Assembly: GCF_947648125.1 (NCBI RefSeq)
Contig: NZ_CANSMR010000003.1
Coordinates: 186,001 to 250,000, forward strand
Source of the DNA: an uncultured Bradyrhizobium sp.
Lineage (GTDB): Bacteria > Pseudomonadota > Alphaproteobacteria > Rhizobiales > Xanthobacteraceae
DNA length: 64,000 nt
Reading direction: 5' to 3'
Below the pieces are notes generated by a model. That model was not told the DNA's origin. It saw only the letters and a list, made by a program, of their open reading frames with translations, and ran no database searches. Shown one piece after another: positions 12,755 through 47,334 of this stretch; within the stretch, counting starts at the first letter, position 1, and each line of letters opens with the position of its first letter. The translations under genes and the position numbers were made by a program.

Positions 12755-12839
12755 ACGAAATGAGCTGAGGCAGATCAAGATAGCCGCCACCACACAATGC
12801 TCTGCTTGGTGACATTGAGCGAACGAGAAAGGGGCATCG

Positions 12840-13097
12840 ATGGAGGAGATCACGCATTTCATTGCCCTGCCGTACGACCGGGCCGATGGTGGGCTCGTTC
12901 CGGGCCAGCAGGCCAAATGCGCCAGCCCAGCCGCGGCGATTGAGCACGCCAAACACTTATGGAAGACGTTCGGCCACGCTGGTGCTGCGGCAATCGTCCG
13001 TACCGGCCATCCGGAGACGAAAACGACCGTGCTGAGGACATATGGCATGGTGCCAAATGACCTGGAGCAAGAACCATCCGCTCCCCATTTGCGGTGA
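12840..13097 (+). CDS. Conserved hypothetical protein (85 aa)
   Basis: The product begins [23 protein letters not shown] and contains '[17 protein letters not shown]' and 'TYGMVPNDL', a pattern found in small Bradyrhizobiaceae proteins of unknown function. No membrane segment or signal is seen. A perfect FixK box upstream and an intrinsic terminator about 110 bp downstream make it a self-contained, probably oxygen-regulated transcription unit. The function is unknown. Confidence 0.65.
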
Positions 13098-13204
13098 GGG
13101 GCAATCCTGCGATTCCTTGTGCTGGATCAAAACGCCGCGGGCCGCCGCATGCTTGCATCCTAAGACGAGCACCCCATACTCCCGTGAGGTTGTCTCGATA
13201 TTCA

Positions 13205-13232
13205 ATGCCCGGCCCTTGCCGGGCATCTTTTT
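13205..13232 (+). terminator. Rho-independent terminator
   Basis: A 9-bp perfect stem ATGCCCGGC / GCCGGGCAT with a CCTT loop is followed directly by CTTTTT. It ends the transcript of the hypothetical gene at 12840 and isolates the phosphoketolase promoter that follows. Confidence 0.85.
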
Positions 13233-13264
13233 GTGGACGTTGCGGCCCGAATTGGCGTGCATCT

Positions 13265-13278
13265 TTGAGCTGGCTCAA
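13265..13278. promoter_or_regulatory. FixK/FNR box upstream of phosphoketolase
   Basis: TTGAGCTGGCTCAA is a symmetrical TTGA-N6-TCAA dyad with G/C at the fifth position instead of C/T-G/A. It lies 80 bp before the phosphoketolase ATG and just after a terminator, where a promoter is expected. Confidence 0.72.
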
Positions 13279-13357
13279 GCCATTCCCGTCATATTCGCCC
13301 TCTAACGTGGAACCGACAGCGGCGTCCGAGGTCATCTTTGAATCCCGGGAGAGCGAT

Positions 13358-15769: not shown

Positions 15770-15797
15770 GGCAGCGAACACGCGAGAGAGACCGTCT

Positions 15798-16982
15798 ATG
15801 TCCGACTGCGTCCTGGTGCTCAACGCCGGCTCGTCCAGCATCAAGTTCGGCCTGTTCGACATCGCGCCGGCCGAGCCAAAGCTGCAATGCAAAGGCCTGC
15901 TCGACGAGCAGGAGAAAGTCCCACGCATCGTGGCGAGCGACGCCTCGGGCAGGCAGCTGTTCGAGAAGCGCCGCGCGAGCGGCACGCCGGAGGACAACGG
16001 CCTGCTCGGCGATATCTTTGCCTGGATCGAGGACTATCTCAACGGCGGCAGGCTCGCCGCCGTTGGCCATCGCATCGTCCATGGCGGCCGCGAGTTCTAC
16101 GGGCCGATCGTCATCACAGGGCAGACTCTCGCTGCGCTGGAGGCGTTGACGCCGCTGGCGCCGCTGCACCAGCCCCGCTGTCTGGCGCCGGTCCGGGCCG
16201 TGCAGTCACTGCAACCGGAGCTGACGCAGATCGCCTGCTTCGACACGGCCTTTCATCACGGCCTGGCCCCGCCGGTGAGCCGCTTTGCCATCCCGCGGCA
16301 GTTTGAGCAGCGCGGCATCCGCCGCTACGGTTTCCACGGCCTGTCCTTCGAATACGTCGCCAGCCGGATCGCTGTGATCGCGCCGGAATGGGCCGACAAG
16401 CGCGTCGTCGTGGCGCACCTCGGCAATGGCGCGAGCCTCTGTGCCTTGCAAAAGGGTAACAGCGTCGACACCACCATGGGATTGACCCCACTCGACGGCC
16501 TCGTGATGGGGACACGCTGTGGAACGATCGACCCCGGCGTGCTGCTTTATCTCATGAAGGAAGAAAGAATGTCGGTCGATGACGTGCAGCACCTGCTGTA
16601 CGAACGTTCGGGTCTGCTCGGTGTCTCCGGGGAGTCAGCCGACATGCGCGCCCTGCTGGCTAGCCACGATCCTGCGGCTCGCGAAGCCGTCGATCTCTTC
16701 ACATTTCGTGTCGCCGCAGAAGTCGCCGTGATGGCAAATACCCTCGCCGGCCTCGATGGCCTGGTGTTCACCGGCGGCATCGGCGAGCACGCCCCGGAAA
16801 TCCGGCAGCGCATCTGCGATCGCCTCTCCTGGCTCGGGGTCAGCATCGATGCAGCCGCAAATGCTCAGGGCGCGCAGCGTATCGCCGCGATGGGCAGCCC
16901 GGTCGATGTACTGATCGTTCCGACCAATGAGGAAGTCAGTATTGCGCGGCACTGCCGCAGCCTGCTGGTCACAGGTCGCTAG
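15798..16982 (+). CDS. ackA: Acetate kinase
   Basis: Acetate kinase interconverts acetyl phosphate plus ADP with acetate plus ATP. The 394-residue product starts MSDCVLVLNAGSSSIKF and contains the ASKHA phosphate loop 'NAGSSSIK', 'VGHRIVHGG', 'RRYGFHGLS', 'AHLGNGASLCAL' and 'FTGGIGEHAPEIR'. It is 28 bp downstream of the phosphoketolase gene in the same direction, and the pair forms a complete ATP-yielding branch from sugar phosphate to acetate. A run of in-frame codons upstream overlaps the phosphoketolase end and is not used. Confidence 0.96.
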   Translation: MSDCVLVLNAGSSSIKFGLFDIAPAEPKLQCKGLLDEQEKVPRIVASDASGRQLFEKRRASGTPEDNGLLGDIFAWIEDYLNGGRLAAVGHRIVHGGREFYGPIVITGQTLAALEALTPLAPLHQPRCLAPVRAVQSLQPELTQIACFDTAFHHGLAPPVSRFAIPRQFEQRGIRRYGFHGLSFEYVASRIAVIAPEWADKRVVVAHLGNGASLCALQKGNSVDTTMGLTPLDGLVMGTRCGTIDPGVLLYLMKEERMSVDDVQHLLYERSGLLGVSGESADMRALLASHDPAAREAVDLFTFRVAAEVAVMANTLAGLDGLVFTGGIGEHAPEIRQRICDRLSWLGVSIDAAANAQGAQRIAAMGSPVDVLIVPTNEEVSIARHCRSLLVTGR

Positions 16983-17064
16983 GTCGTGACGACCTTGGCT
17001 TGGCGGCAGCCGCCGAGCAAGTCTGATCCAGGACGTTCCTTGTGAGACGCTGCAACGATCTGGT

Positions 17065-18174
17065 TCAGTCCGTCGCCGCGATCCACATCACGAGCTCCCT
17101 TGCGAGGGTACCGAAAGCCTTATCGAAGGCGGCGGCCGCCTCGGACGGCGTCAGCGAGTTAATTCCTTCAGATTGCTCGAGAAGCTTTGCTGCCTTGACC
17201 TGACCATTTCGATCCACGATCTTCGCGGACAAGGAGATCGTCGCGCGCGGTTGAGGTCCCTGCACAATTTCGAACCGGCGCAGGTCGATCAGCAGACGCA
17301 GCGCACCTTCTACGCCGCTGTCGGCACGCAGTGGCGCATGCTCGATATCGTAATTCTCGAAGCTCTGCAGCAACCGTGCCTGCACCAGCACCGGGAGACT
17401 GTCGCTCCACTGCGCAGCTTCGAATCCCTGAGTTTCCTCATCCGGCGTGAACAGGAAGCGCTGGGTCTGGAGGCGGGCGATCGCGGTCGGCTCCGCCATG
17501 ACCAGCTGCTCGGGCAGATTCGCATGGCGTTGCGCGCCGAAGCTGTCCACCGCATGAAGGTCGTACGCCACCTTGCGCGGCGCGGGCGCACCGCCGCCGG
17601 TCATACGTTCGAGTCCGGCCACAATTCCATCGAGCTTCGGCGTGTTACGCGCGAGCCCCTCGGCGAACGTGCTGAGATTGTCGATCGTGCTGTGCAGCGG
17701 CGCGGCGTTGTCGGACAGGACGGCATCGACCCGGCGTAGCGCATCGCGGGCAGCCTGCGTCATGCTCCGCCCGGCCCCCTTTTCGGCCACCAGCGGTTCG
17801 CGTGCCGGCGGCGCCTGGGGATCGTCACCGCCTTCCAGCGCGATCACCGGAACACCGGTCAATCCCTGGAAATCGAGGCCGACACGCGTATCGGTGTGCA
17901 CCGGCGTGCGCTCGGCGACCGCGATCCTGGCGCGAACCTCGCGCGGGCGCTCCGGAACCAGTTCGAGGGTTGTGACCTCGCCGACGCGGATACCGTTGAA
18001 GAGAACGCCCGCCCCGACGAGCAGGCCAGGCACGGGGTCGGTAAAGACGACCTGATACGTCTCCCGCTTTCCGATTCCACCGAAATTGTTCAGCCAGTAG
18101 ACGAAGCCGAACACGGCAACGATTGCCGACAATACGAATGCACCAATGACAATGTAGGGCGCGCGGATTTCCAT
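17065..18174 (-). CDS. MlaD-family substrate-binding protein with C-terminal lipoprotein-like auxiliary domain
   Basis: The 369-residue product (start MEIRAPYIVIGAFVL) has one N-terminal membrane anchor and an MCE/MlaD domain (about residues 35-115, 'FTDPVPGLLVGAGVLFNGIRVGEV' in part and 'DFQGLTGVPVIAL'). A helical region follows to about 220. Its last ~150 residues ('SLPVLVQARLLQSFENYD', 'DLRRFEIVQGPQPRATISLSAKIVDRNG') look like the ABC-type transport auxiliary (PqiC/YmbA-like) domain, usually a separate lipoprotein. It is the third gene of an mlaEFD-type cluster, which traffics phospholipid between the membranes. Confidence 0.85.
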   Translation of the reverse strand: MEIRAPYIVIGAFVLSAIVAVFGFVYWLNNFGGIGKRETYQVVFTDPVPGLLVGAGVLFNGIRVGEVTTLELVPERPREVRARIAVAERTPVHTDTRVGLDFQGLTGVPVIALEGGDDPQAPPAREPLVAEKGAGRSMTQAARDALRRVDAVLSDNAAPLHSTIDNLSTFAEGLARNTPKLDGIVAGLERMTGGGAPAPRKVAYDLHAVDSFGAQRHANLPEQLVMAEPTAIARLQTQRFLFTPDEETQGFEAAQWSDSLPVLVQARLLQSFENYDIEHAPLRADSGVEGALRLLIDLRRFEIVQGPQPRATISLSAKIVDRNGQVKAAKLLEQSEGINSLTPSEAAAAFDKAFGTLARELVMWIAATD

Positions 18175-33928: not shown

Positions 33929-33995
33929 AAATTTCCCGATCCAAGAGATGCGATCAATCTGCCTCCATCGATCTTCCCATCCATGGAGTGCCGGC

Positions 33996-34673
33996 ATGCA
34001 GACCCAGAACGCCGTTTCTATCGAGAATAGCCGTTACACGACCAGCATCCTCAGCCGGCAGGCGCGCGTTGAAGGGCCCTTCGGCATGATTGGGACGCCG
34101 ATGCGGTTCGCACGCAACAGCGAGATCTACGGCGAGGACGAGGCCGCGGAATACCTCTACCAGGTCGTTTCCGGCGCCGTCCGAACCTACAAGGTTCTGG
34201 AAGACGGACGTCGCCAGATCGGCGCATTTTATCTGCCCGGGGATATCTTCGGCTTCGAGGCCGGCGAGACCCATATCTCCTCGGCCGAGGCCGTCTCCGA
34301 GACGCGGGTCATCGTGGTCAAGCGCGCCGCGCTCATGGTCCGTGCGACTCACGAAAAGGACCTGGCACGGCAGCTGTGGGATGCTACGGCCCAGGAATTG
34401 CGTCGTTTCCAGGAGCATCTGATGCTGCTGATCTGCAGCGCAGAAGATCGTGTCGTCGGCTTCCTTCATGACATGGCGCGCCGCGCCGTCAAGAATGCCG
34501 CCATCGAGCTTCCGATGTCGCGCCAGGATATCGCCGACTATCTCGGTCTGACGATCGAAACGGTGTCACGCACCTTTACCCAGCTCGAGCAGAACGGCGT
34601 GATCTCGCTTCCGACCTCGCGCCGGGTGGAACTGCGCAAGTGTGCGCTGTCGAACCGGATCATGGCGGCGTGA
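33996..34673 (+). CDS. fixK: Crp/Fnr-family transcriptional activator FixK
   Basis: FixK binds TTGA-N6-TCAA sites and activates low-oxygen genes. The 225-residue product (start MQTQNAVSIENS) has a cyclic-nucleotide-type beta-roll (about 30-130, 'DGRRQIGAFYLPGDIFGFE') and a C-terminal helix-turn-helix (about 165-210) with the recognition motif E-x2-S-R in 'TIETVSRTF', matching TTGA. The N-terminus lacks the Fe-S cysteines of FNR, so it should not sense O2 directly. One cysteine lies near the C-terminus ('LRKCALS'). Its promoter looks FixJ-controlled and hemN follows 53 bp downstream. Confidence 0.94.
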   Translation: MQTQNAVSIENSRYTTSILSRQARVEGPFGMIGTPMRFARNSEIYGEDEAAEYLYQVVSGAVRTYKVLEDGRRQIGAFYLPGDIFGFEAGETHISSAEAVSETRVIVVKRAALMVRATHEKDLARQLWDATAQELRRFQEHLMLLICSAEDRVVGFLHDMARRAVKNAAIELPMSRQDIADYLGLTIETVSRTFTQLEQNGVISLPTSRRVELRKCALSNRIMAA

Positions 34674-34726
34674 GAGAGGCGCGCCAGGCTCCGATAGCCA
34701 GCCGCGAGTGAGAGGCGAGGAATCGA

Positions 34727-36079
34727 ATGCGGTCGAACCTGGCGATCACCTATGGGCAGGACAGGCTGCCGCGCTACACCAGCTATCCCACGGCTCCGCA
34801 TTTTTCTGCGGAGGTCGGCGAGGCTGATTACCGGACATGGCTGAGGTCGGTTCCAGCCCGCCGGCCGGCCTCGATCTACCTGCATGTACCGTTTTGCCGG
34901 TCGATGTGCTGGTACTGCGGGTGCCACACCTCCATCACCAATCGCGACGAACCGGTCGCCATCTACGCCGCCGGCCTTCGCACCGAGGCGCACCTCGTTG
35001 CGGAAGCGATCGGCCAGCGACTGCCCGTCTCCCACATCCATTTCGGTGGCGGCACCCCGACGATCATGACGCCCGAAACCTTCGCCGATCTCGTCAGCGC
35101 GCTGCGTTACTCGTTCTTCGTGCAGCCCGACGCGGAGATCGCCGTCGAGATCGATCCGCGCACCCTGACCGAGCCGATGGCGGAGGCATTGGGCTACAGC
35201 GGCGTCAACCGCGCGAGCCTTGGCGTCCAGAGCTTCGATCCTGTCGTCCAGCACGCCATCAATCGGTCGCAGAGCCTTGAGCAGACCGCGGAAGCGGTCG
35301 AGCGGCTGCGCCATGCCGGCGTCGGCCGCATCAACTTCGACCTGCTCTACGGCCTGCCCGCTCAGACTGTCACTTCCTGCCTGGACACCATCGACAAATG
35401 CGTCGCGCTGCGGCCCGACCGGTTTTCCGTGTTCGGATACGCCCATATTCCTTCCTTCAAGAAGCACCAACGCATGATCGACGAGGACTTGCTGCCGGAT
35501 AGCCTCGAGCGGCATCGTCAGTCCGAGGCAATCGCGCAGGCGCTGACCGATGCCGGATACATCCGCATCGGCCTCGACCATTTCGCGCTCCCCGGCGACA
35601 ATCTGGCCATGGCAAAGCGCGAGGGCCGGCTGCGGCGTAACTTCCAGGGCTACACGGACGATTCTGCCGAGACTTTGATCGGTCTCGGCGCCAGCGCAAT
35701 CGGCCGCATGCCGCAGGGCTTCGTGCAGAATGCAGTCGCGACACGCGACTACCTGGCACGCATCGCCGAGGACCGGCTTGCCACCGTCAGGGGCTACATG
35801 CTGACGGAGGAGGACCGCTTTCGCGCTGACATCATCGAGCGCATCATGTGCGATATGGCCGTCGACTTGCCGCAAATATGCCACCAGCACCGCTGGGACC
35901 CGAGTTTGGCTGTCGTCGATCGGTCCCGGCTCGAGAGGCTGATCGCAGACGGCGCTGTGACGATGAGGGGCGACCGCCTCCTGATCAACGATGACGCAGA
36001 ATTCCTCGTCCGCAGCGTCGCCTCGGCATTCGACGTTCACCTCGGTCGCACCACGGCCCGGCATAGCCGAGCGGTCTAG
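34727..36079 (+). CDS. hemN: Oxygen-independent coproporphyrinogen III oxidase
   Basis: This radical SAM enzyme converts coproporphyrinogen III to protoporphyrinogen IX without O2, keeping haem synthesis going for the cbb3 oxidase and cytochromes. The 450-residue product has the HemN cluster motif C57-x3-C61-x2-C64 (followed by C66) in 'PFCRSMCWYCGCH', the glycine-rich 'HFGGGTPT' and 'SLGVQSFDP', and the C-terminal HemN domain (about 365-440). It lies 53 bp after fixK in the same direction. No separate FixK box was seen in the short gap. Confidence 0.96.
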   Translation: MRSNLAITYGQDRLPRYTSYPTAPHFSAEVGEADYRTWLRSVPARRPASIYLHVPFCRSMCWYCGCHTSITNRDEPVAIYAAGLRTEAHLVAEAIGQRLPVSHIHFGGGTPTIMTPETFADLVSALRYSFFVQPDAEIAVEIDPRTLTEPMAEALGYSGVNRASLGVQSFDPVVQHAINRSQSLEQTAEAVERLRHAGVGRINFDLLYGLPAQTVTSCLDTIDKCVALRPDRFSVFGYAHIPSFKKHQRMIDEDLLPDSLERHRQSEAIAQALTDAGYIRIGLDHFALPGDNLAMAKREGRLRRNFQGYTDDSAETLIGLGASAIGRMPQGFVQNAVATRDYLARIAEDRLATVRGYMLTEEDRFRADIIERIMCDMAVDLPQICHQHRWDPSLAVVDRSRLERLIADGAVTMRGDRLLINDDAEFLVRSVASAFDVHLGRTTARHSRAV

Positions 36080-36108: not shown

Positions 36109-36432
36109 TTAGAGCAGCTTTGGATGTTGTCTGCTTCGCTTGCTGATCCAGGTCGTGCATGCCGCAAGCAGAACAAGGACCGCGATCCCTGCAGCGCTTA
36201 CCACGAACTGCGCGGCGATGCTGTTGGACACTTCGAAGAGATAAAAGCCTGCCAGCAGTGATAGCACGACGGCCGCACAATAGGTCTCGAGCGAACACTC
36301 GCCGCAGCGAATTGCGCCGGTGAGGACGCCCCTGGCAAATCCGGGCCAATTCGGCGGCACGAACCTCGCCACGACGATAGCGATCGCCAGGAAATGCAGG
36401 AGCCGCAGTAGGTCCAGGTCCGTCTTGTACCC
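36109..36432 (-). pseudogene. C-terminal remnant of OpgC (osmoregulated periplasmic glucan) protein
   Basis: Only about 107 codons remain. In frame they read GYKTDLDLLRLLHFLAIAIVV and continue with 'ARFVPPNWPGF', 'CGECSLETYCAAVVLSLLAGFYL' (in part) and 'QFVVSAAGIAVLVLLAA', matching the last membrane helices of OpgC-type acyltransferase proteins. Going upstream, the frame loses similarity and hits a stop within 12 bp, next to the start of the old-yellow-enzyme remnant on the other strand. The rest of the gene (about 280 codons) is missing. This marks a recombination junction. Confidence 0.7.
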
Positions 36433-36575
36433 CTGGTGAGGTCATGCAGCTCCCGCCGCGGGAGGAAATCGTCATGGTAGCAGGGACACCTCCAATCCGC
36501 GCCAAGAAGGTGCGCTACTACGAGGATCGGCGGTTCTCCGAACGCGTCTTGCCGCCGCCAGATCCTGCGGCCTCC

Positions 36576-37404
36576 GCGGTGCACTCCGAGGGCGGCGCAA
36601 TCTTCGCGCAGCTTGCCCATTCCGGAGGGGTCTCGCATCCCGACTTTTTCGATGGCGAGCTGCCGCCCGCCCCGTCCGCGGTGAACCCTGGCCTGAGATC
36701 ATTCACGCCAGACGGTTTCAAGGACACGGTGACGCCGCGTGCCATGTCGGTTGAAGAGATCGCTTCGACCGTCGCGGACTATGGGGTAGCCGCGAAGAAC
36801 GCCCGCGAGGCCGGCTTCGATGGCGTGGAGCTGCATGCCGCAACCACCTATCTCCTGCCGGAATTCCTCAACAGCGCGCTGAACATCCGCGAAGACGGCT
36901 ATGGCGGCTCCGCGGCGAACCGAACTCGAATCGTCCTGGAAGTTCTCGACGCGCTCATCGCGGTCTGGGGACCAGGACGTGTTGGCATCAAGATCAGTCC
37001 GACGCTGGCCATCGGCGGCTTTGAGCTGACCGACAAGACGGTTGAGACCTATGACTACCTTGTTGGCCGCCTCAATGGGCTTCCGCTCTCTCACCTTTCA
37101 GGCAAGTAGACAAATCAATGACCTGTCGGGCACATCCGTCGTCGCCTTGCAGGACACGATCGACTACTACCGCGCCCGCTTCAAGGGCACGTTGATCGCG
37201 AACTCAGGCTTTGACCGCGACTCAGCCAACACCGCGATCGAGAGCAAGCAGGCCGATCTGATTTCCTTCGCCAAACCGTTCATCGGCAATCCCGATCTCG
37301 TACGACGATTTCGCGAGGACCTGCCGTTGGCAACCTCGTCCCCGGAGACCTACTACCAGGGCGGAGCGCAGGGATACGTCGACTACCCCACGGCTAGCAC
37401 CTGA
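36576..37404 (+). pseudogene. Truncated and frameshifted old yellow enzyme (NADH:flavin oxidoreductase) gene
   Basis: The first part (36576-37109 frame) reads 'AIFAQLAHSGGVSHPDFF', 'ELPPAPSAVNPGLRSFTPDGF', 'FDGVELHAATTYLLPEFLNSA' and 'DGYGGSAANRTRIVLEVLDAL', typical of OYE enzymes. After 'LVGRLNGLPLSHL' the similarity jumps frame (37110-37404) to 'TLIANSGFDRDSANTAIE', 'ADLISFAKPFIGNPDLVRRF' and 'YYQGGAQGYVDYPT', the usual OYE C-terminus. About 100 N-terminal codons are missing or scrambled; the stretch 36444-36575 is not recognisable OYE. Enzyme function is lost. Confidence 0.85.
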
Positions 37405-37733
37405 GTCAGTGATCGCTGACGCGAATGCATGAGCAATTGGAGTCGGCCCGCGGCGAGCAGTTGAGATGAAAGAGCTTGGGCATGGCCAAGGCCCCTGTCA
37501 GCCTAGCGCCTTCACGGCTTGCTGATGCTGGTTGAGGAAATTGACCGCGGATGTGGTCGGTGCACCCGTCGGTCGTTCTTGTTTCGAACGGGCTTCGTTG
37601 CGACCGCAAATGTGAGAAGATAATCTCGGCACGTTGTACGAAGCGGTCTTGGTGTTCCCAAAGATTCCGGACCCATGGAGACACCGCTTAAAATAGTGTA
37701 AGTTCCGAAACGGATCGCGGGGGAGCCAGTCCA
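37405..37733. other. Gap before the FAD-protein operon, no gene supported
   Basis: This 329-bp stretch separates the OYE remnant from the operon. Reading frames here look like noise. A purine-rich ribosome-binding sequence (GGGGGAG) lies about 10 bases before the ATG at 37734, and the AT-rich TTAAAATAGTGTAAG near 37688-37702 could belong to a promoter. No FixK box is present. Confidence 0.5.
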
Positions 37734-39803
37734 ATGGGGGCCGATACCGAATTGCGACCGGTCAAGGTTGCCGTGCTGGGCGGAGGTGTGGCCGGACTGG
37801 CAGCTGCTTTCGAGCTGTCCGACCCCAGGCATGGGGGGCGTTTCCAAGTCACGCTGCACCAGCTCGGCTGGCGGCTTGGTGGCAAATGCGCGAGCGGGCG
37901 CGATCTTGATACCGCGCGGCGCACCAAGGAGCATGGGCCACATATTTTCTTCGGCTTCTACGACAACGCTTTCGCCATGCTTCGCGAAGCCTACACGGCA
38001 CTCGCGGCGGACTCCGCGCGGGTATTTCCGACCATCGAGGATGCGTTGGTCGCCCATAACAGCCTGGCCACGATGGAACAGCAGGACGACGGCTCCTGGC
38101 TGCCCTGGGTGATCGACCTCCCCACCTTGCCCGGCCGACCCGGCGATAGCTTGCCCCGGCCCCAGGCGCAGGCGCTCGACGCGCTGATGGGCATCATCGA
38201 GCGAAACACCACCCGGCTGGCCGCGCAGCAAGCGCCAAGCCCCGATGCGCTCCACGCCAACGCCTTGATCGTCTCGACGCTGGCCGAGGTGAAGCAGAGG
38301 GCAAACGCACTGATCAAGGCCAGCCCGGAAGGACGCGAGGCCGTCACCGCGCCCTTCGTTCAAAGTCTTAAGCGACTGCAGACTGCCATTCAGGCGGCAA
38401 GGCCGAGGCCGGGGCTCGCTGGCCAATCGGTCTCGTGGCGCCGGCTGAAGATACTGGCGGACCTCGCCGTTGCCACCGCCCTGGGCATGGCCATTGACGA
38501 CCTGATCTGGCCCACGCGCCAGTCGGTCGCCGCGGCCAACGAGATCGAATATCGCGCCTGGCTGCTGCGGCACGGCGCAGCATCTGAGACTGCCAACTCG
38601 GCGATCGTCCGGGCGATGTACGACACTGTGTTCGCCTATCCTGACGGGGACGTCGCTGCGCCCGGCAATGTCGAGGCTGGTTCGGCGGTTCTCACCCAAA
38701 AGGGGCTGATCTCCTATCGCGGCGCGCCTAGCTACAAGATGCGCACGGGCACCGGCGATGTTACTGCCGCGCCGCTTTATCAGGTGCTTGTCCAGCGCGG
38801 CGTCACCGTGAACTTTTTTCATCGCGTCGATGAGCTGATCCCGGCCGCCGACGGCACCATCGAGAGCATTCGCATCGGCGTTCAAGCGACCCCGAAGCCG
38901 GGCGGATATCAGCCGCTTATTAACGTAAAAGGCGTGCCCGCCTGGCCAGACCGACCGCTTTATGACCAGCTCGTCCAGGGCGACGCGCTGCGGGACGGCC
39001 ACATCGACCTTGAATCGTTCTGGACGCCCTGGGTGGACCCCGCACCGCCGATCGTTCTGTCCCGCTCGGCCGGGGATTTCGATGCAGTCGTGCTCGCAAT
39101 TCCGGTCGGAGCACTTGGCCAACTCACCACGAAACTCACCCGGCCCAGCTGGCTTGCGATGCTAGCCGGCTCAAGCACCGTGCGGACGCAGAGCGTGCAG
39201 GTATGGCTGGACCGCGACACCGGCTGGAGTTCGGGCGTCGCGCCGGTCGTCACCGGCTACGACCGCGCCGCGATCGATACCTGGCTTGATGCGAGCGAGG
39301 TGATCCCGTTCGAGGACTGGCCCGCGCCTGCGCCGCTTCACATGGCCATTCTGTGCGGCCCACTGGTGCAACTGGGCGCCGCGCCGCCCCCCACCGATCA
39401 CGCTTTTCCCGGCGCCGAGGCAGCGGTCGTGGCCAATGCCGGTCAGCAATTCCTCAACGCCGCGACGCCGCTCTGGCCCGCGCTCACCAGCGCCAACGGC
39501 TTCGACTGGTCGGCGCTCACTGCCCCCGCCACCAGCTCCGGCCCACTCCGTTTTCAATCGCAATACTGGGTGGCGGCAATCAATCCGGGTGATCGCTATG
39601 TGCTGACGCTGGTCGGCTCAAGCAAGACGCGGTTGCAGCCGGATGCCAGCGGCTACGCCAACCTCTACCTTGCCGGCGACTGGACCGATTATGGGCTAAA
39701 TCTCGGCTGCTTCGAGGGCGCGGTCATGTCCGGGCTGTTGGCGGCAAACGCCATCACCGGCGATCCGCGTCCGATCCTGCGCAACCCGTTCGACGAGAGC
39801 TGA
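37734..39803 (+). CDS. FAD-dependent phytoene-desaturase/amine-oxidase-like protein, copy 1
   Basis: The 689-residue product has an N-terminal dinucleotide motif 'VAVLGGGVAGLAAAFEL', the follow-on 'GWRLGGKCASGRD' and 'EHGPHIFFGFYDNAFAML', and the C-terminal FAD motif 'NLYLAGDWTDYGLNLGCFEGAV'. This order is that of phytoene/zeta-carotene desaturase and flavin amine oxidase families. It is about 200 residues longer than usual, with the extra length in the middle. No signal or membrane segment is seen. The next gene begins 2 bp after its stop. The substrate is unknown; a hydrophobic or isoprenoid-like substrate is an inference from the fold. Confidence 0.8.
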   Translation: MGADTELRPVKVAVLGGGVAGLAAAFELSDPRHGGRFQVTLHQLGWRLGGKCASGRDLDTARRTKEHGPHIFFGFYDNAFAMLREAYTALAADSARVFPTIEDALVAHNSLATMEQQDDGSWLPWVIDLPTLPGRPGDSLPRPQAQALDALMGIIERNTTRLAAQQAPSPDALHANALIVSTLAEVKQRANALIKASPEGREAVTAPFVQSLKRLQTAIQAARPRPGLAGQSVSWRRLKILADLAVATALGMAIDDLIWPTRQSVAAANEIEYRAWLLRHGAASETANSAIVRAMYDTVFAYPDGDVAAPGNVEAGSAVLTQKGLISYRGAPSYKMRTGTGDVTAAPLYQVLVQRGVTVNFFHRVDELIPAADGTIESIRIGVQATPKPGGYQPLINVKGVPAWPDRPLYDQLVQGDALRDGHIDLESFWTPWVDPAPPIVLSRSAGDFDAVVLAIPVGALGQLTTKLTRPSWLAMLAGSSTVRTQSVQVWLDRDTGWSSGVAPVVTGYDRAAIDTWLDASEVIPFEDWPAPAPLHMAILCGPLVQLGAAPPPTDHAFPGAEAAVVANAGQQFLNAATPLWPALTSANGFDWSALTAPATSSGPLRFQSQYWVAAINPGDRYVLTLVGSSKTRLQPDASGYANLYLAGDWTDYGLNLGCFEGAVMSGLLAANAITGDPRPILRNPFDES

Positions 39804-39805
39804 CC

Positions 39806-40768
39806 ATGCCCGACCCACAGCCGGCAGGCGCGCTGCCCGCCTATGTCGATTATCCGAGCGTCCAGACACTGCCCGGGCCGATCGCCTTTACCAACGTACG
39901 AATGTCCGCGTTCTACCTGGCAGCCGACGGCAAGACGTTGCAGGCGCTGTGCGACCGTCTGATCGCCGTACCCAGCGGCGGGCGGGTGCAGTTCACACCG
40001 ATGCCCAGCGTCATCATGAGCTTCACCGAATTCCCACATTCGGTCTTCGTCAATTACGCCAATCGCGGCGTCGCGACCGAGCGCGAGCTTTCGTTCGGCA
40101 TCCCCGGCATCTTCACGCGCTTCGATGGGCCAATTCCGGTCGAGATCGGCTTCGCCCTGTTCATGCCTTTCCTGTTCCTTGACAATCCAGTGGCGCTGAT
40201 GACGGGGCGGGAAAATTACGGTTTCTTCAAACAGACTGGACAGATCCGTCTGCCAGACGATCCTGGTAGCGTCGGGTTTTCTGCCGAAGTTTATGGCTGC
40301 GCCAGCTTCAGCCCGACCGCGAATTGGAGCCCGCAGTGCCTCATCACCTTGCGGCGCGTGGCCGGGGCAGCGCCCCACCCGGCGCTCGGCCTGCCCTGGC
40401 ATGACCCGATGGCGGCCGCGCGCAACCTCGCCGCGGCGATGCAAGCTGCGGCCAGCGGCGCAACAATCGCGCCAGCCGCGTTCGCCGATTTTCTCACCGG
40501 CAGCCTGCCGCAGATTTTCCTCAAGCAGTTTCGCGACATCGCCGACGGCACGCGCGCCTGCTACCAGGCCGTCACGCTGGCCCGCTACAACGTCACCAAG
40601 CTGATCAACGTCAGTGTCGAAGATCAGTATGCGATCGACCTTAAGGCGCTCGACAGCACGCCCGTCGCCGCCGCGCTCGGGCTCGTGCCGGCGACCGAGA
40701 CTGGTCTTGGATTGCGGGTCGAGATGGACATGCAACTGGAAAACGGCAAAGTGCTATGGCAGGCATAG
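39806..40768 (+). CDS. Acetoacetate-decarboxylase-like protein
   Basis: The 320-residue product resembles the acetoacetate decarboxylase superfamily. The key segment 'GRENYGFFKQTG' (about 134-145) corresponds to the active-site motif GREYxGxPKK of the family, keeping R135, E136 and the Schiff-base lysine at K142, but with F in place of the proline before it. The approach 'EIGFALFMPFLFLDNPVALM' is also family-like. True decarboxylases are about 240-270 residues, so this one is longer. It is sandwiched between two paralogous FAD proteins and overlaps the second by 13 bp. The activity is unknown. Confidence 0.75.
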   Translation: MPDPQPAGALPAYVDYPSVQTLPGPIAFTNVRMSAFYLAADGKTLQALCDRLIAVPSGGRVQFTPMPSVIMSFTEFPHSVFVNYANRGVATERELSFGIPGIFTRFDGPIPVEIGFALFMPFLFLDNPVALMTGRENYGFFKQTGQIRLPDDPGSVGFSAEVYGCASFSPTANWSPQCLITLRRVAGAAPHPALGLPWHDPMAAARNLAAAMQAAASGATIAPAAFADFLTGSLPQIFLKQFRDIADGTRACYQAVTLARYNVTKLINVSVEDQYAIDLKALDSTPVAAALGLVPATETGLGLRVEMDMQLENGKVLWQA

Positions 40769-42861
40769 GCGCTCCGGCGACGCGGCAAAAAATCGCCATC
40801 GTTGGCGGCGGCATGGGCGCGCTCACCGCCGCCTATTGGCTGACCGATCCCAGTCTCGGCGGACGCTACGACGTCACGGTCTACACGATGGGCTGGCGGC
40901 TCGGCGGCAAGGGCGCCAGTGGCCGCAACCAGAATCGCAACGGCCGCATCGAAGAGCACGGACTGCATATCTGGTTCGGCACCTATCACAACGCGATCGC
41001 GCTGATGCGGAGCTGCTACGCCGAGCTCGGGCGTCCGCCGGATGCGCCGCTGGCGACGTTCGATGACGCGTTCAAGCCGCAACGACGCCTCGTGCTGCTG
41101 GAGGAGATCGAAGGAGAGTGCCACCCCTGGACTATCGATAGTCCCGACCTGCCTTTGATCGACGACCTCACCGTGCTCGGCCTGCTGCGCAAGCTGATCG
41201 GCTGGTTGAGCGGGCACGTCGCCGGCATCCCCGGGTTCGAGCAACTGCGCGTCGCCGATTTCGCCAAGACCGCGCACCCCAAGGAAGCTGCGGCGATCGC
41301 AGCGATGGCCGGGCCCGGCGGGGTGACAAACCAAACGGCGCAGCACTTGATGGATTTTACAAAAGGCCAGATCCAATTCCTCGAGCCGGGGACGGAAGAC
41401 GCCAGCCGTCAGGCAGGGGTGCTCTCGGGCGCAATGCGGCTTGTCGCCCGCATGTTGTTCCCTTTGCTGGAGCCAGAGCTGCCAAAGGATGACGCAGCAC
41501 GGCGGCTCTGGATTCTCGCCTATCTCGGCATCACCTTCGCCCGCGGCATGCTCGACGATCAGCTGTACGAAAAAGGCTTCGACGCGGTCGAAAACATCGA
41601 GATGCGTGACTGGCTTGCCAAGCACACCTCGTTCGACCAGCCCGGCGATTCACCTCTCGCCGACAAGCTCGCTTTCTTCTCGGCTTGCCTGCAAGCCTTC
41701 TACGACGCGTCGTTCTCCTATGTCGACGGCGATGCGACAAAGCCGAACGCCGCTGCCAGCGTGGCGTTGCGCTGCATTCTACGCATCGCGTTCGACTATG
41801 TCGGGCCGATCATCCTGGAGATGCAGGCCGGAATGGGCGACACCGTCTTCACCCCGCTCTATCTCGTACTCAAACAGCGTAACGTGCGCTTCGCCTTTTT
41901 CCACCGCCTCACCAATCTGCAACTCGATGCCGGCCGCAAATCGATCGCCGGCATGACGTTCAGCCGCCAGGTCCAGATCCCCGACGCCACCGCGTACAAA
42001 CCGCTGATCACCGTCAACGATCTCCTCTGTTGGCCCTCCGCGCCGCTGTTCGGGCAAATCACCGACGGAGCCGCGCTGAGCGCATCAGGCGCCAATATCG
42101 AGCATTGGAACAGCGGCTGGACCGACACCGGCGGAGCGTTTTCTCTCGCGCGTGGCCTCGATTTCGACCATGTCGTGCTTGGCATCTCGTATGACATCCT
42201 GCCGGACGTGACGCACGAACTCGGCACCAATCCCCGCTGGAAGGCCATGATTGGCGGGCTCGATAGCGCCGATACCCAGGCCGCCCAGCTGTGGTTCGCC
42301 GCCGACCGCGCCCAGCTCGGCATGGATGCAACGCCGGAAATTTTCGGCGGCTATTTTGAGCCATGGTCGAGCCTCGTCGACTTCTCTCACCTGCTGCCGC
42401 GCGAAGCATGGCCCGCAGGTAACGCGCCGCGCTACCTGAACTATACCTGCGGTCCGCTGGCCAAACAGGCGACGCCCGGTGACGACGCGGTCTATGTCAG
42501 GCTGCGCGATTTCCTCAACACCCGCGCAGCGCCGCTCTGGCCGAACGCCGTCGACGAAGCGGGTTTCAAATACGATCTCCTCTACGCCGACCCCGCGCTG
42601 AGCGGTGAGGACCGGCTCAAGGCGCAGTACTGGCGCGCCAATACCGACCCGACCGAGCGCTACGTGATCGCCAAGGCGAACACCGCCTCAGTTCGCTTGC
42701 AGCCCGGTCAAACCGGTTTCGACAATCTTTCGATCGCCGGCGAGTGGGCCGATTCCGGCGTCAATATCTCGAGCATCGAGGCAACGGTGATCACCGGGAT
42801 GCGCGTCTCCCGCGCGCTGACTGGCCAGCCCCAGCGCATCGCCGGCGAGAAAGACCTCTGA
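40756..42861 (+). CDS. FAD-dependent phytoene-desaturase/amine-oxidase-like protein, copy 2
   Basis: The 701-residue product is a paralogue of the protein at 37734. It has 'IAIVGGGMGALTAAYWL', 'GWRLGGKGASGRN', 'EHGLHIWFGTYHNAIALMR' and the C-terminal 'NLSIAGEWADSGVNISSIEATVITG'. The shared N-terminal words GWRLGGK-ASGR and EHG-HI-FG-Y-NA are nearly identical between copies, while the middles have diverged. In the C-terminal motif GDW has become GEW and the usual EGAV is EATV, so FAD contacts or role may differ. It overlaps the decarboxylase-like gene by 13 bp (translational coupling) and ends 33 bp from the convergent cyclase gene. Confidence 0.8.
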   Translation: MAGIGAPATRQKIAIVGGGMGALTAAYWLTDPSLGGRYDVTVYTMGWRLGGKGASGRNQNRNGRIEEHGLHIWFGTYHNAIALMRSCYAELGRPPDAPLATFDDAFKPQRRLVLLEEIEGECHPWTIDSPDLPLIDDLTVLGLLRKLIGWLSGHVAGIPGFEQLRVADFAKTAHPKEAAAIAAMAGPGGVTNQTAQHLMDFTKGQIQFLEPGTEDASRQAGVLSGAMRLVARMLFPLLEPELPKDDAARRLWILAYLGITFARGMLDDQLYEKGFDAVENIEMRDWLAKHTSFDQPGDSPLADKLAFFSACLQAFYDASFSYVDGDATKPNAAASVALRCILRIAFDYVGPIILEMQAGMGDTVFTPLYLVLKQRNVRFAFFHRLTNLQLDAGRKSIAGMTFSRQVQIPDATAYKPLITVNDLLCWPSAPLFGQITDGAALSASGANIEHWNSGWTDTGGAFSLARGLDFDHVVLGISYDILPDVTHELGTNPRWKAMIGGLDSADTQAAQLWFAADRAQLGMDATPEIFGGYFEPWSSLVDFSHLLPREAWPAGNAPRYLNYTCGPLAKQATPGDDAVYVRLRDFLNTRAAPLWPNAVDEAGFKYDLLYADPALSGEDRLKAQYWRANTDPTERYVIAKANTASVRLQPGQTGFDNLSIAGEWADSGVNISSIEATVITGMRVSRALTGQPQRIAGEKDL

Positions 42862-42894
42862 TTTCGGCGTGGACAGCGGTGTCTCCCCGTCCGA

Positions 42895-45800
42895 TCATGC
42901 TTTCAGCCGCTCCAGCGCGGCCCGCGCCGCCAAGCCCGCGGCCGGCAGTTGCAAGCGCGCCGCCTCCGCCGCGGCCTGCTCCGTCAGTGCCATCGCCCGA
43001 GCATCGCGGCCGCGCAGCTCGGCGTAGCGCGCAAGCAGGAGCAGCGCTCGGGGGCGCGTCAAGGGCTGGCGCATGCCGAAACACTTGACCCGGCGCATCA
43101 TCCGCCGGATTTCCAGGTGCTGCGCAAAGCCCAGCCGGCCGCCCGTGGCGAGACGCTCTAGGAACACCTCGGCGGCGCCGAACACGCCGGCTTGCACATA
43201 AAAACCGAGCGACCGCCAATCGGCTAGCGCGCCCATCACCTGGCGGGCGTGCGCCAACGCCTCGTCGGTCCGGCCACGACGTAGATGCACCAGCGCGAGC
43301 AGCCCCAGCGTCCAGATCCGCTCGTTCCGTCCGACACTGCCGAGAAGATCGCTGGCGTCGAACAGCCGGCGCTCCGCCGTGGCGATGTCGTCGCCGCAAA
43401 GCGCCAGCCCGGCCGCTTCAAGCCGCGCCCAGCAGCGCAATTGCGGATCACCCGCCTGATCCGCCTCCACCTCGAACAGGGCGGCGAGCTCCGCGCCATC
43501 GGCGTAGGCGCCGGTTTCCGTGAGCGTCAGGATCAGCAGCGACGTGGCGTCGAGTTTGCGGCGGCGGTTGTGCGACGCCGCAGCCAGCGTCAGCATGCCG
43601 CGCAATTCCGCCTCGACCTCCGCGAGCCGCCCGGCGGTGAGCAGAAACAGCGCGATGTATTCGGTCGTCATCAGCCGGTCGTGTGGCTTGTCGAGGTCCG
43701 GGCTCGTGCGCCGCGCGCGGGCGAGATAGCGTTCGGCGAGGCCCGGCATGCCGGACAGCAGGAACACGAGGGAGAGCAGCCCGGCTGAGCGCGAATAGAT
43801 CGCGCCGTCGCCCGCGCGCTGCGACAGGTTGACCGCCGCCAGCGTCGCTGTCGCCATCGCCGCCAACTTCGATTGGTGGCCGAACCCCTGACCCAGCGTT
43901 TCCAATGCGAGCGCCGATTGGCGCACACGGTCGGCAGTGACGTCCTGCGCCACAAGCCGCGACAAGACGTCCCTTGCATTCGCCGGCCGGCGCCATTCCA
44001 CCATAGTCTGCATTAGCGCGTGGCGAGCAAACGTGCCGAGGCTGCCGAGCAAGCTGTCCGACCACCGGAAGCCGAATTTCGCGAGGGCGATGGTCAGGTG
44101 ATGGATGCTCTGCGGCACCTCGCCGGCAAACATGAGCGCCTCCCCGCGCAAGCGGTGCAACTCCCCGGCACGATCGGCATCGATCGCCTCTGCGCCCGGT
44201 GCCGCCTCGATGGCCGCGATCGCACCGAGCGCCTCGCCAAGCGCCATCACGGCTTCGCGGTAGGCGCCGCCCGCGAGCGCGGTGGTGCCGGCGGTCTCCC
44301 AATAGGGCAGCGCGCGGTTGGGCCGGTTCGCCCGGCTCCAGTGCAGGCCGAGCAGCGTAGGCGCCGGACGATTGCCCTCGGGCTCGGCCTCGAACAATTC
44401 GGCGACGGCCGTATGCAGCCGGCGCCGCTGCTCGAACGGCAGGAGCTGATACACGGCCTCCTGCGTCAACGCGTGGTCGAAGCCGTAGAGCGGATCGGCG
44501 CCGGGACGCAGCACGCCGATCATGCCGATCTCGACGAGCCGCGTCAGGCACTCGTCCAGATCCGCGGTACCGAGCGCCGCGGTCAGCGCGCGGTACGAGA
44601 AGGTAGTGCCGATGACGCTTGCCGCCTTGAGGGTTAATTGCAGTTCGGCCGGCAGGCGATCGACGCGCGCGACCATGGTGCGCTGGATCGATTCCGGTAT
44701 TTGCAGCGAGGCGGCGTCGGCCGACTGCGCGGTGAGTCGACAGACCCCATCGCGCAGGCTCAGTGCACCCTGGTCGCGCAGCGCGAGCGCGAGCTGGCGC
44801 GCGAACAGCGGATTGCCGGCGGCGCGCTCCTGGATGAGCCCGAGCAACTCCGGCGCGATCTCGCGGCAGCCGAGCACATCGGCTATGACGTCGGCCACCG
44901 AATCGCGGTCGAGCGGCGCAAGCGCCAGCCGCTCGACCGCGATGCTCGCCGCCAACGCCCGCATGCCCGACAACGGGCCCGCCGTGTCCGATCGCGACAC
45001 CAGCACCAGCAGTACGCCGGGCATCAGCCGCGCGACATGGCCCGCCAGCAGCCAGGAGGCGGAGTCCATCCGGTGCACGTCCTCGATGACGATTAGCACG
45101 CCACTGCCGATCCGGTCGCGCAGCAGGGCCGCGAGCGTCTCGCAAGTGACCCGCGCCATATCCTCGGGCGGGAGGTAGGGCGCTGCACGCGCCGGAGCGC
45201 GCATCGCCGGCAGTACGGCGCCGGCCAGCGCCGCATGGTCTTGCGGCAGCCCCTGCCGCCCCAGGGCGGTGCGCAGTTGCGCTTCGCATAGCTCCGGGCC
45301 GATGACCTCGGCGGCGAAGGCGGCGGCGAACACCGGACCCCAGGCCGCGAAAGGCTCAGCAATGCCGGCCAGCGGGTCGGCGGCACCACGCAGGCAAGGG
45401 AACTGGCCCTCCGTCATCGCGGCGAGCGCCCCGACCAAAGCCGATTTGCCAATGCCCGGCGGGCCGTCGATATGCACCACCGGGCGCTGAATCGGAGTAC
45501 CGAGCTGGCTAAGCCGCTGTCGCAGCCAGGCCCGTTCGCCCACCCGATCAATCAACGCTCCGGCCACCGGCGCTGCCGCGTGCCGGTATTCAATCGGGCG
45601 GAACAGTGCCCCGCCGTCCGGTAGGCTCCCGTCGACCTGCTCGAAAACGATGCGCTGGCTTGTCATCCGCACGATCGCCGCGTCGCAGAGCAGTGCCGGC
45701 AGATCGCGCCGGTCGAGCAGCTTCGCGGCACGGTTCACCGCATCGCCCATCGTCGTATAGACGTGCCGGTCCCGGTTCCCGACCACGCCGCAATAGGCCA

Positions 45801-46905
45801 GGCCGAACGTCACCGTGCACCGCGCATCCGACCCATGCCGAGCAAGCGCCAGCTGAATTTCCTGTGCGGCGCGCACCGCGCGCACGGCGTCGTCGTCGTG
45901 GGCCTGGTCGGGCAGGCCAAAAGCGATCATCGCCATCGGTCCCTTGTCGCTGGCCGAGACGCGGATCAGCGCGCCCTCGAACCGGGCTACCTGATCCTGG
46001 ATCGACTGCACGGCCTGTTGAGTGGCCGCGAGATCCTCGGCGGCGGTGCAGCGCAGTCCGGGCATACCGACGCAAAGCATTGCCAGCCAGCGGAATTCCG
46101 CGAGCCATTCCGAACGCAGTAACCCACGACGGCGCATCGCTCCGGGCAGGAAAGCGTGCAGCAGTGCTGCCTCTGCCGCGAGCGGCGCGGCCGGACGTTC
46201 GACCTGCGTTGGCGACGCGTCGATCAGGCCGCTCAGCAGCCGCGGTGTGGCGATCTCCGGGACGAGCGGCAGCGCGGCGCGGATCGCACCGGCAATGCCT
46301 ACTTGCCCTGGCTGGGCGAGCCGAAGCAGCGGCGGAATCTCGCCGAGACAATCGCCGCTCAGCATGAAAATCCACTCCCCGTCCCCACCGCCGGCCTGTA
46401 CGGCGCAGAGATCGCCCGCTACCACCGCGGCGCGAACGCGCAACGTGACGCCACCCGGCACAATGTGATTGTCGTGCCGGCCGACGATGTCGGCTGAGCA
46501 GCCGAGCGTCAGGCGCGTAGCCGCCGCCGGGTCAGTCAAGGTCTCTGGCCAGAATGCCAGGATCGCGTCGCCATAGATGTTCTCGATATCGCCGCCCCAT
46601 GCGAACACGCAGTCGCTGAGACGGCCGAGATACTCGCTGATGATCAGCGAGAGCTCCTCGACCCCTTCATCGCCTTTGTCCTGATAGCTTCGCGTCAGCC
46701 GGCTGAAGCCCGAGATATCGGCGAACAGCACCGTGCCGCGCAGCGGTCTGATCCATGGCCGTAACGGCTCGGCTTCGCCGGACGCCGCCTGCAACAGCCA
46801 TCGTGGCATGTGCGCGTCGAGGCCGTGCGGCAGCTCTGCCCGCGTCGGCTCGGACGTGACCGGTACCCCCCCGTGTCCTTCTCCGGCAACCATGGGAACT
46901 ATCAT
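42895..46905 (-). CDS. Soluble-adenylyl-cyclase-like protein: two cyclase domains, AAA-type ATPase and helical repeats
   Basis: From the start MIVPMVAGEGHGG the product is 1336 residues. Domain C1 (about 55-190) has 'VLFADISGFSRLT' and 'IENIYGDAILAFW', giving metal aspartates D63 and D113, but the usual Asn-Arg segment is degraded ('SGDCLGEIPPLL'). Domain C2 (about 270-400) lacks the aspartates but keeps 'TMGDAVNRAAKLL' with N391 and K395. Walker A is 'GPPGIGKSAL' (about 481-490), and a long TPR-like helical region fills roughly 850-1336. The split of residues between C1 and C2 matches human ADCY10. An upstream open frame overlaps a gene remnant on the other strand and is not used. Confidence 0.85.
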   Translation of the reverse strand: MIVPMVAGEGHGGVPVTSEPTRAELPHGLDAHMPRWLLQAASGEAEPLRPWIRPLRGTVLFADISGFSRLTRSYQDKGDEGVEELSLIISEYLGRLSDCVFAWGGDIENIYGDAILAFWPETLTDPAAATRLTLGCSADIVGRHDNHIVPGGVTLRVRAAVVAGDLCAVQAGGGDGEWIFMLSGDCLGEIPPLLRLAQPGQVGIAGAIRAALPLVPEIATPRLLSGLIDASPTQVERPAAPLAAEAALLHAFLPGAMRRRGLLRSEWLAEFRWLAMLCVGMPGLRCTAAEDLAATQQAVQSIQDQVARFEGALIRVSASDKGPMAMIAFGLPDQAHDDDAVRAVRAAQEIQLALARHGSDARCTVTFGLAYCGVVGNRDRHVYTTMGDAVNRAAKLLDRRDLPALLCDAAIVRMTSQRIVFEQVDGSLPDGGALFRPIEYRHAAAPVAGALIDRVGERAWLRQRLSQLGTPIQRPVVHIDGPPGIGKSALVGALAAMTEGQFPCLRGAADPLAGIAEPFAAWGPVFAAAFAAEVIGPELCEAQLRTALGRQGLPQDHAALAGAVLPAMRAPARAAPYLPPEDMARVTCETLAALLRDRIGSGVLIVIEDVHRMDSASWLLAGHVARLMPGVLLVLVSRSDTAGPLSGMRALAASIAVERLALAPLDRDSVADVIADVLGCREIAPELLGLIQERAAGNPLFARQLALALRDQGALSLRDGVCRLTAQSADAASLQIPESIQRTMVARVDRLPAELQLTLKAASVIGTTFSYRALTAALGTADLDECLTRLVEIGMIGVLRPGADPLYGFDHALTQEAVYQLLPFEQRRRLHTAVAELFEAEPEGNRPAPTLLGLHWSRANRPNRALPYWETAGTTALAGGAYREAVMALGEALGAIAAIEAAPGAEAIDADRAGELHRLRGEALMFAGEVPQSIHHLTIALAKFGFRWSDSLLGSLGTFARHALMQTMVEWRRPANARDVLSRLVAQDVTADRVRQSALALETLGQGFGHQSKLAAMATATLAAVNLSQRAGDGAIYSRSAGLLSLVFLLSGMPGLAERYLARARRTSPDLDKPHDRLMTTEYIALFLLTAGRLAEVEAELRGMLTLAAASHNRRRKLDATSLLILTLTETGAYADGAELAALFEVEADQAGDPQLRCWARLEAAGLALCGDDIATAERRLFDASDLLGSVGRNERIWTLGLLALVHLRRGRTDEALAHARQVMGALADWRSLGFYVQAGVFGAAEVFLERLATGGRLGFAQHLEIRRMMRRVKCFGMRQPLTRPRALLLLARYAELRGRDARAMALTEQAAAEAARLQLPAAGLAARAALERLKA

Positions 46906-46954
46906 TGCACGAAAACGGGTCGCCAAGTCGAGTTTCTGGCTGCGCGTTTCGACG

Positions 46955-47334
46955 TCCGCCGCCCAGGAACTGGGCGTCTCGCCTAAACAAAAGGACCGCG
47001 CGAGGCAGACGTTTATGAAGTCGGCACAGTATGCGGGCTTCGTTGATTCAGCCACCGGCCGCTTTGTTAAGCCCGGAATTGTGCGACGCGACGAGCCTCC
47101 CGGGATCGGAGAGAGGAAGCGCCGCGGTCGCGGCAACGACGGAAACGAGCCGCCCGGCCAGCATCCGTTTGTGCAGGGCCTTCTGAAAGAGTTGCCAAGG
47201 AGGGAGACCTAAGGCCCGAAGACAAGCCAAAACTATGGCTCGACACCGCCGCCAGCATTTTCAAAATGATCTACAGAGATGAGCCAGCCGGAACGGATGG
47301 GCTTCCGCGGCGGAAAAACGACGCCATGAAATGA
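46955..47334 (+). pseudogene. Frameshifted remnant of a conserved hypothetical gene
   Basis: One frame reads 'GVSPKQKDRARQTFMKSAQYAGFVDSA' (in part), 'TGRFVKPGIVRRDE' and 'HPFVQGLLKELP', and then the similarity continues in another frame as 'GDLRPEDKPKLWLDTAASIFKMIYRDE' (in part) to a stop at 47334. Together these resemble the C-terminal half of a conserved alphaproteobacterial protein, with a single frameshift near 47205. The 5' half is missing and the left end abuts the start of the cyclase gene on the opposite strand, so the cyclase cassette may have been inserted here. The family function is unknown. Confidence 0.6.

Follow-up and report, generated by a model that had tools for sequence, protein, structure and literature searches.

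The element described here lies in a 64,000-nucleotide stretch of an uncultured Bradyrhizobium sp. (hereafter the window; positions 186,001 to 250,000 of contig NZ_CANSMR010000003.1, assembly GCF_947648125.1) and comprises four genes that encode two flavin adenine dinucleotide (FAD) proteins, an acetoacetate decarboxylase (ADC)-like protein, and a candidate signaling protein. The first three are encoded on the + strand: FAD1 (37734..39803; 689 amino acids, aa), a flavoprotein of the phytoene-desaturase/HpnE-like group with a canonical C-terminal GDW motif, the ADC-like gene (39806..40768; 320 aa), and FAD2 (40756..42861; 701 aa), a FAD1 paralogue with C-terminal GEW rather than GDW. A gap of 2 bp separates FAD1 from the ADC-like gene, which overlaps FAD2 by 13 bp; this layout, with the same lengths and strand, had been given in the original prediction, made from this DNA alone. 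The fourth gene, CYC (42895..47136, − strand; longest open reading frame (ORF) 1413 aa), is convergent to the other three and encodes an ADCY10-like protein with tandem class III cyclase, AAA_16, and TPR regions. The original prediction treated the three + strand genes as the unit; that trio stands, but CYC, which was overlooked, also belongs to the conserved unit as its fourth member.

The four genes occupy a 9.3 kb block (37630..46967, for which no strand applies) that corresponds as one homologous piece to positions 7838-17169 of a 20,960-base stretch from Bradyrhizobium macuxiense (locus L005). A blastn comparison of the whole window with this stretch returns a single 9347-bp match at 91.4% identity and a 199-bp FAD cross-match, nothing more, and neither L005 flank (7.8 kb and 3.8 kb) matches anywhere in the window. 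In the window, the block begins 0.1 kb ahead of FAD1 and ends just upstream of the likely CYC start, an ATG at 46905 that falls within the conserved piece. Pairwise ratios of nonsynonymous to synonymous substitution (dN/dS, NG86) against B. macuxiense are 0.175 for FAD1, 0.212 for the ADC-like gene, 0.113 for FAD2, and 0.200 for CYC, and the comparison as a whole shows a conserved four-gene unit that is subject to purifying selection. A resolvase fragment lies on one side of the L005 block and a 600-aa serine recombinase on the other. Because the flanks are unrelated and recombinases sit at the block edges in L005, the four-gene module is probably mobile.

Relatives of the FAD proteins are detected by a FAD profile (E ≤ 1e-30) in 5 of 398 genomes of the phylum, the window's own included, and in 3 of 321 genomes of the class of G356, G356 included. 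The FAD2 protein has a match in 14 of 195 genus genomes, or 13 once G569 is dropped (a 60-residue match with a stop), while the ADC-like protein alone is found in 2 of 299, its own included. FAD1 relatives also occur in 11 plasmid records (Azospirillum, 8; Catenovulum, Qingshengfaniella, and Rufibacter, 1 each), five of which were examined. Gene architecture was compared across 28 loci with complete FADs (14 paired and 14 single loci, 42 FADs in total), with mechanical ORFs serving as gene calls in relatives outside annotated records.

An ADC domain or gene is present in 25 of the 28 loci. The five loci retrieved with the ADC query (L005-L009) all carry a FAD as well and, because they were found through that query, contain ADC by construction; among the other loci, found by FAD queries, the count is 19 of 22. 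The two domains are fused in the order ADC-FAD in L007, L008, and L009, as well as in L057 (outside the 28), and in the order FAD-ADC in L012, L035, L036, L038, L041, L042, L045, L046, and L049; these natural fusions in both orders show, at the level of sequence, that ADC and FAD domains physically belong together. In L040, L044, and L050, three genes intervene between FAD and ADC. In L056, a locus from a different class, the genes follow the window order (FAD-ADC-FAD, then a convergent cyclase), and the second FAD groups with window FAD2 (support 100/99). The gene-neighborhood search proposed at the outset thus finds FAD and ADC together elsewhere, including in a genome of another class, and the earlier expectation that the trio acts together is very probably correct given the co-occurrence in distant taxa and the two fusion orders. 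Co-function of the module genes as a whole is likewise very probable.

FAD1 and FAD2 are 34% identical overall, and both have the N-terminal motifs GWRLGGK.ASGR and EHG and the NAD_binding_8 Rossmann motif, with C-terminal motifs that differ (GDW versus GEW), as had been read from the DNA. Pfam and NCBIfam place both proteins in the amine-oxidase/phytoene-desaturase/HpnE flavoprotein group, below the NCBIfam equivalog cut-offs, and both carry the dinucleotide motif and C-terminal acidic motif of this group (GGG/GDW in FAD1 and GGG/GEW in FAD2). The N-terminal Rossmann motif and the AGDW-type C-terminal motif are features shared with HpnE and with phytoene and zeta-carotene desaturases. Identity with HpnE itself (TIGR03467) is rejected, with scores of 72.4 and 37.4 bits against a cut-off of 283.05 and a true HpnE scoring 399.6 bits elsewhere in the genome. 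With FAD1 as the query, only FAD1 and FAD2 are recovered from their own genome at E ≤ 0.001.

The GDW aspartate, which presumably contacts FAD, is encoded in FAD1 by the Asp649 codon (39678..39680, +) and is replaced in FAD2 by Glu663 (42742..42744, +); both positions are set by the motif table and by the flanking alignment columns G648 and W650 in FAD1 and G662 and W664 in FAD2. All 14 single FADs have GDW. At the paired loci, alignment shows one FAD with the canonical GDW site and another without the aspartate: exactly one GDW FAD is found in 14 of 14 pairs, and in its partner the aspartate is replaced by E, C, S, A, or T. Label shuffling assigns this pattern a probability of 3e-7, but the sequences are related to one another, and the number of independent pairs is below 14 since L005 is near-identical to the window and L014 and L015 are close to each other. 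On the FAD tree, from which L047 (same contig as L005), L052 (the 60-residue match with a stop, in G569), and L057 (partial FAD) were left out, two changes are required to explain the GDW/non-GDW pattern, and the data neither establish nor reject one ancient origin for every non-GDW FAD (approximately unbiased test, p 0.198). The one-GDW-per-pair pattern therefore makes it probable that the paired FADs are an old heteropair in which one flavin site has been altered, which agrees with the heteromeric pair proposed originally, one member of each pair being noncanonical. FAD2 may be a "pseudo-enzyme." The rule of one canonical and one altered FAD amounts to a sharp prediction of a catalytic/noncanonical heteromer.

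The middle protein scores 24.5 bits (E 2e-5) against the acetoacetate decarboxylase family PF06314, short of the 29.8-bit gathering threshold. Its relatives in L008, L012, L035, L037, L040, and L049 exceed that threshold (30.4-33.1 bits), one L050 copy falls under it (16.2 bits), and the second L050 copy has no match. Canonical ADC identity is rejected by score, and true members of the family exist elsewhere in the genome: the ADC-like query finds only itself there, and the Pfam model finds three further, stronger ADC genes. The family resemblance includes a Schiff-base-type lysine in a GRExxGxxK context, Lys142 (codon 40229..40231, +; GRENYGFFKQ), which is followed by Gln rather than Lys.

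The original prediction that a decarboxylase-type lysine is retained is borne out by all 27 aligned ADC domains, strongly diverged fused ones included (the count omits L047 and L010, the latter being the same place as part of L050). None of the 27 has a second lysine adjacent to the first, the residue there being Y, Q, S, V, R, T, M, A, or G, whereas of the three canonical ADCs encoded in this genome, two read KK and one reads KV. In acetoacetate decarboxylase, Lys115 is the Schiff-base residue according to PMC4520260, and for Lys116 a pKa-lowering role is indicated by the title of a paper cited in it. With no pKa-tuning lysine in any of the 27 domains, simple decarboxylation ceases to be the obvious reaction, and the decarboxylation step proposed earlier is weakened; isomerase, dehydratase, or lyase chemistry appears at least as likely for the ADC-like protein. 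CLA-DC of Lactiplantibacillus plantarum provides a precedent, being described in PMC13365329 and PMC12254105 as an ADC homologue that does not decarboxylate and acts as an enone isomerase on oxo-fatty acids.

CYC has a Pfam AAA_16 match (5.9e-12) and TPR regions; ahead of these lie two class III cyclase domains, both of which align to human ADCY10, the soluble adenylyl cyclase (sAC; PDB, E 5e-25). Two aspartates, which we take to be metal-site residues, are encoded at 46717..46719 (−, first, in LFADISGF) and 46567..46569 (−, second, in IYGDAILAFW), and the Walker A motif GPPGIGKS lies at 45442..45465 (−). Tandem class III cyclase domains with an AAA/TPR region are a likeness to ADCY10 and to bacterial cyclase-AAA-TPR and TOMM kinase-cyclase proteins; CYC differs in being tied by position to a flavoenzyme/ADC operon and reaches 136 bits against a cut-off of 706 with the TOMM kinase-cyclase model.

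Within the genus, tandem-cyclase homologues (E ≤ 1e-43) occur in 11 of 13 FAD genomes versus 6 of 182 others (Fisher p 3e-12). This cut-off was picked after the list had been seen, and at 1e-40 one extra non-FAD genome (G480) is added; the 195 genomes are apparently the same draw as in the FAD2 survey, as judged by their handles. Cyclase-AAA proteins are common in the genus (6 to 55 first-look candidates per listed genome; 3 scored), and for the single-cyclase neighbors of the Bradyrhizobium loci L035, L040, and L044, chance adjacency is not negligible at ~7-13% each. As a cause of the tandem-cyclase link, abundance is nevertheless very unlikely in light of the 11/13 versus 6/182 contrast. A Crp/Fnr gene adjoins the cyclase in L012 (by annotation) and in L049 (cNMP_binding plus HTH_Crp_2), and the window has a Crp/Fnr-type gene at 33948-34673, 3 kb upstream and outside the conserved block.

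Tandem-cyclase/AAA_16 genes that lack the trio are found next to other flavoproteins, of Amino_oxidase type in L058 (and, by likeness, L059) and of glucose-methanol-choline (GMC) type in L061 and L063 (and, by likeness, L060). Since these cyclases adjoin other flavoproteins, the pairing of the tandem-cyclase class with flavoenzymes may be general. In L058 and L059, genes for an Amino_oxidase, a thiamine pyrophosphate (TPP) enzyme, and a KAS III-like protein stand beside the tandem cyclase; in L061 and L063 (L060 by likeness), the neighbors are large GMC oxidoreductase-hydrolase(-PhoD) fusions.

Across the 28 loci, an AAA_16-type signaling gene accompanies all 14 paired loci and 7 of the 14 single ones, assigned by Pfam in the window, L012, L013, L014, L035, L040, L044, L048, and L049 and by BLAST likeness to CYC in the others. 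Its predicted output varies among tandem cyclase, single cyclase, and kinase architectures, the L013 gene being kinase-GAF-cyclase. Among the seven loci without a detected AAA_16 gene, a seven-transmembrane (7TM) histidine kinase or 7TM-GGDEF gene adjoins the fusion in L007 and L008. The constant AAA_16-type partner of the pairs with its swapped outputs, the altered flavin-site motif in one FAD of every pair, and the flavoprotein neighbors of trio-less cyclases (L058, L061, and L063) would also suit an arrangement in which the flavoproteins and the ADC-like protein act as a complex that senses redox state or lipids and controls the AAA_16/cyclase protein, not as a production pathway. We consider this unlikely: the FAD1 motifs and ADC Lys142 are strictly conserved, 7 of 28 loci have no detected AAA_16 gene, and the interaction is a proposal drawn from sequence.

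A role in anti-phage defense or conflict, with a STAND-type cyclase sensing invasion and the enzymes as effectors, would account for the STAND/AAA_16-like ATPase joined to a cyclase, the patchy distribution (13 of 195 genus genomes), the recombinases at the L005 block edges, the TIR-TPR neighbor in L050, and the PDDEXK-nuclease, patatin-like phospholipase, and recombinase genes near the L013 cluster. It is nonetheless the least probable of the explanations considered, and we give it little credence. PADLOC returns 0 matches for FAD1, ADC, and FAD2 (those three were submitted; the cyclase was not), and the neighbors of the plasmid loci L011, L012, L014, and L015 are mainly metabolic, transport, regulatory, or hypothetical genes. 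The L050 TIR-TPR protein (L050:14947-16902) lies near a FAD/prenyl-synthase/ADC cluster, where many loci have the AAA_16 gene.

Hints about the substrate come from relatives. A polyprenyl synthetase is encoded between FAD and ADC in L044 (E 1.9e-50) and L050 (E 4.7e-54); the interval also encodes a conserved protein that neither Pfam nor NCBIfam recognizes and a third protein, whose L050 copy matches Sacchrp_dh_NADP. All three sequence clusters, polyprenyl synthetase included, are also represented in L040. In L056, an RPE65-type carotenoid oxygenase (E 8e-125) lies between FAD2 and the cyclase, and in L014, an OMPP1/FadL-type porin gene lies next to a FAD gene, between the two FAD genes of that locus. 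Because of these prenyl synthase, carotenoid oxygenase, and FadL neighbors, we favor an isoprenoid or other long hydrophobic chain as the putative substrate. The decarboxylation/desaturation sequence on a hydrophobic substrate that had been guessed originally is thus indirectly supported in its hydrophobic part and weakened in its decarboxylation. In Anabaena lipid droplets, an ADC-family protein and a FAD oxidoreductase are listed together in PMC12923008. The protein that accompanies prenyl synthase, FAD, and ADC (L040:7737-8567, L044:10385-11209, and L050:9631-10398) ends in a GTYxGxIVDSxTNEPGGT-type C-terminal segment, and the FAD/ADC cluster of Azospirillum L014 and L015 adjoins ethanolamine ammonia-lyase genes and a FadL-type porin gene.

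One of the closest described systems is the cla operon of L. plantarum (CLA-HY, CLA-DH, and CLA-DC), which likewise combines a FAD enzyme with an ADC homologue acting on a long hydrophobic chain; according to PMC13365329 and PMC12254105, its enzymes act in sequence, the FAD enzyme CLA-HY cooperates with CLA-DC, and the ADC homologue is a double-bond isomerase. By analogy, the window block could be a fatty-acid module: a FAD enzyme, together with an enone isomerase of the ADC type, would move double bonds within fatty acids that are exogenous or part of the membrane. This option also draws on weak matches of the fused relative L008 to MCRA and oleate hydratase and on the FadL-type porin gene between the L014 FAD genes. 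A fatty-acid module is possible, if rather doubtful, and ranks ahead of a sensor complex. CLA-HY is of the oleate-hydratase (MCRA) type, whereas the window FADs are paired, match the phytoene/zeta-carotene desaturase and HpnE models, and have no MCRA match at E ≤ 0.001. The full cla-type set (MCRA-type hydratase, short-chain dehydrogenase, and ADC homologue) is not found in the block, which lacks a CLA-DH-type dehydrogenase and has an AAA_16/cyclase regulator attached, and the related loci contribute a prenyl synthase and a carotenoid oxygenase.

Our preferred reading, to which we assign a probability of about 0.5, is that the four genes form one functional, probably mobile module for signal-gated lipid or isoprenoid oxidation, with substrate, chemistry, reaction order, and signal as we infer them from the features above. 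FAD1 would carry out the catalysis as a flavin dehydrogenase/oxidase, its substrate being a hydrophobic chain, probably an isoprenoid or polyene, and FAD2 would be a noncanonical partner that forms a heteromer with FAD1 and influences how substrate or flavin is handled. The ADC-like enzyme would capture the carbonyl or enone so formed as a Schiff base on Lys142 and then isomerize, dehydrate, or cleave it. The AAA_16 signaling protein would convert a sensed cue into a cyclic nucleotide (or a kinase/histidine-kinase output in some relatives), and the cyclic-nucleotide signal would switch the enzyme genes on or gate the enzymes.

Several observations weigh against this reading. No ADC is detected in 3 of 28 loci (L013, L048, and L051), and no AAA_16 gene is detected in the retrieved stretch of 7 of 28. 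The L014 signaling gene (kinase-GAF-PAS, cut by the locus end) and the complete L048 gene (kinase-GAF-histidine kinase) have no detected cyclase, and the neighbors in L050 and L051 are TIR-TPR or wHTH-TPR proteins. FAD2 may itself be active, since Glu at the GDW position also occurs in other working flavin amine oxidases and can be functional. At two sAC active-site positions CYC differs from ADCY10, with N at the Lys95 position and K at the second-domain Arg position (numbering and catalytic roles as we assume them); because these catalysis-linked sites differ, its cyclase activity is not assured. Finally, the window block itself has no isoprenoid gene, and the isoprenoid hints derive from 4 of 28 loci.

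Under the reading of a signal-gated oxidation module, an uncharacterized desaturase-like flavoprotein branch and an ADC branch without the second lysine become linked to a dedicated signaling ATPase. This link is seen in at least two classes of Pseudomonadota, and a Bacteroidota locus has FAD and signaling genes with ADC not detected. The parts are known, and a description of the combination was not found in the open-licence literature searched. The module may offer a bacterial setting for finding the input of an ADCY10-like cyclase. A stronger version, improbable in our estimate, holds that an obligate catalytic/altered desaturase pair and an ADC-fold enzyme produce or read an isoprenoid-derived signal wired to a human-sAC-like AAA cyclase; if true, the module would be a self-contained, mobile lipid-to-cyclic-nucleotide signaling cassette.

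A family of ~310 aa without a Pfam match is encoded beside the FAD and signaling genes in L013 (10150-11100) and L048 (7282-8190), two loci with no detected ADC, and a relative of it occurs on a plasmid of Streptomyces chartreusis, with neither FAD nor cyclase in the retrieved stretch. Upstream of the block, the window carries a degenerate old-yellow-enzyme (N-ethylmaleimide reductase-like) gene at 36444-37404, apparently split over two frames (the second piece by eye), whose first ORF opens with ~38 aa that resemble part of a TraG/type IV secretion system (T4SS) coupling protein; together with an OpgC fragment at 36109-36372, this gene looks like a scar adjoining the block. Farther upstream, at 33948-36079, a FixK/Crp-Fnr-like regulator is followed by the oxygen-independent coproporphyrinogen oxidase gene hemN, and this region, which also contains genes for cytochrome c and, by eye, for CBS-domain-like and USP-like proteins, resembles a microaerobic locus.

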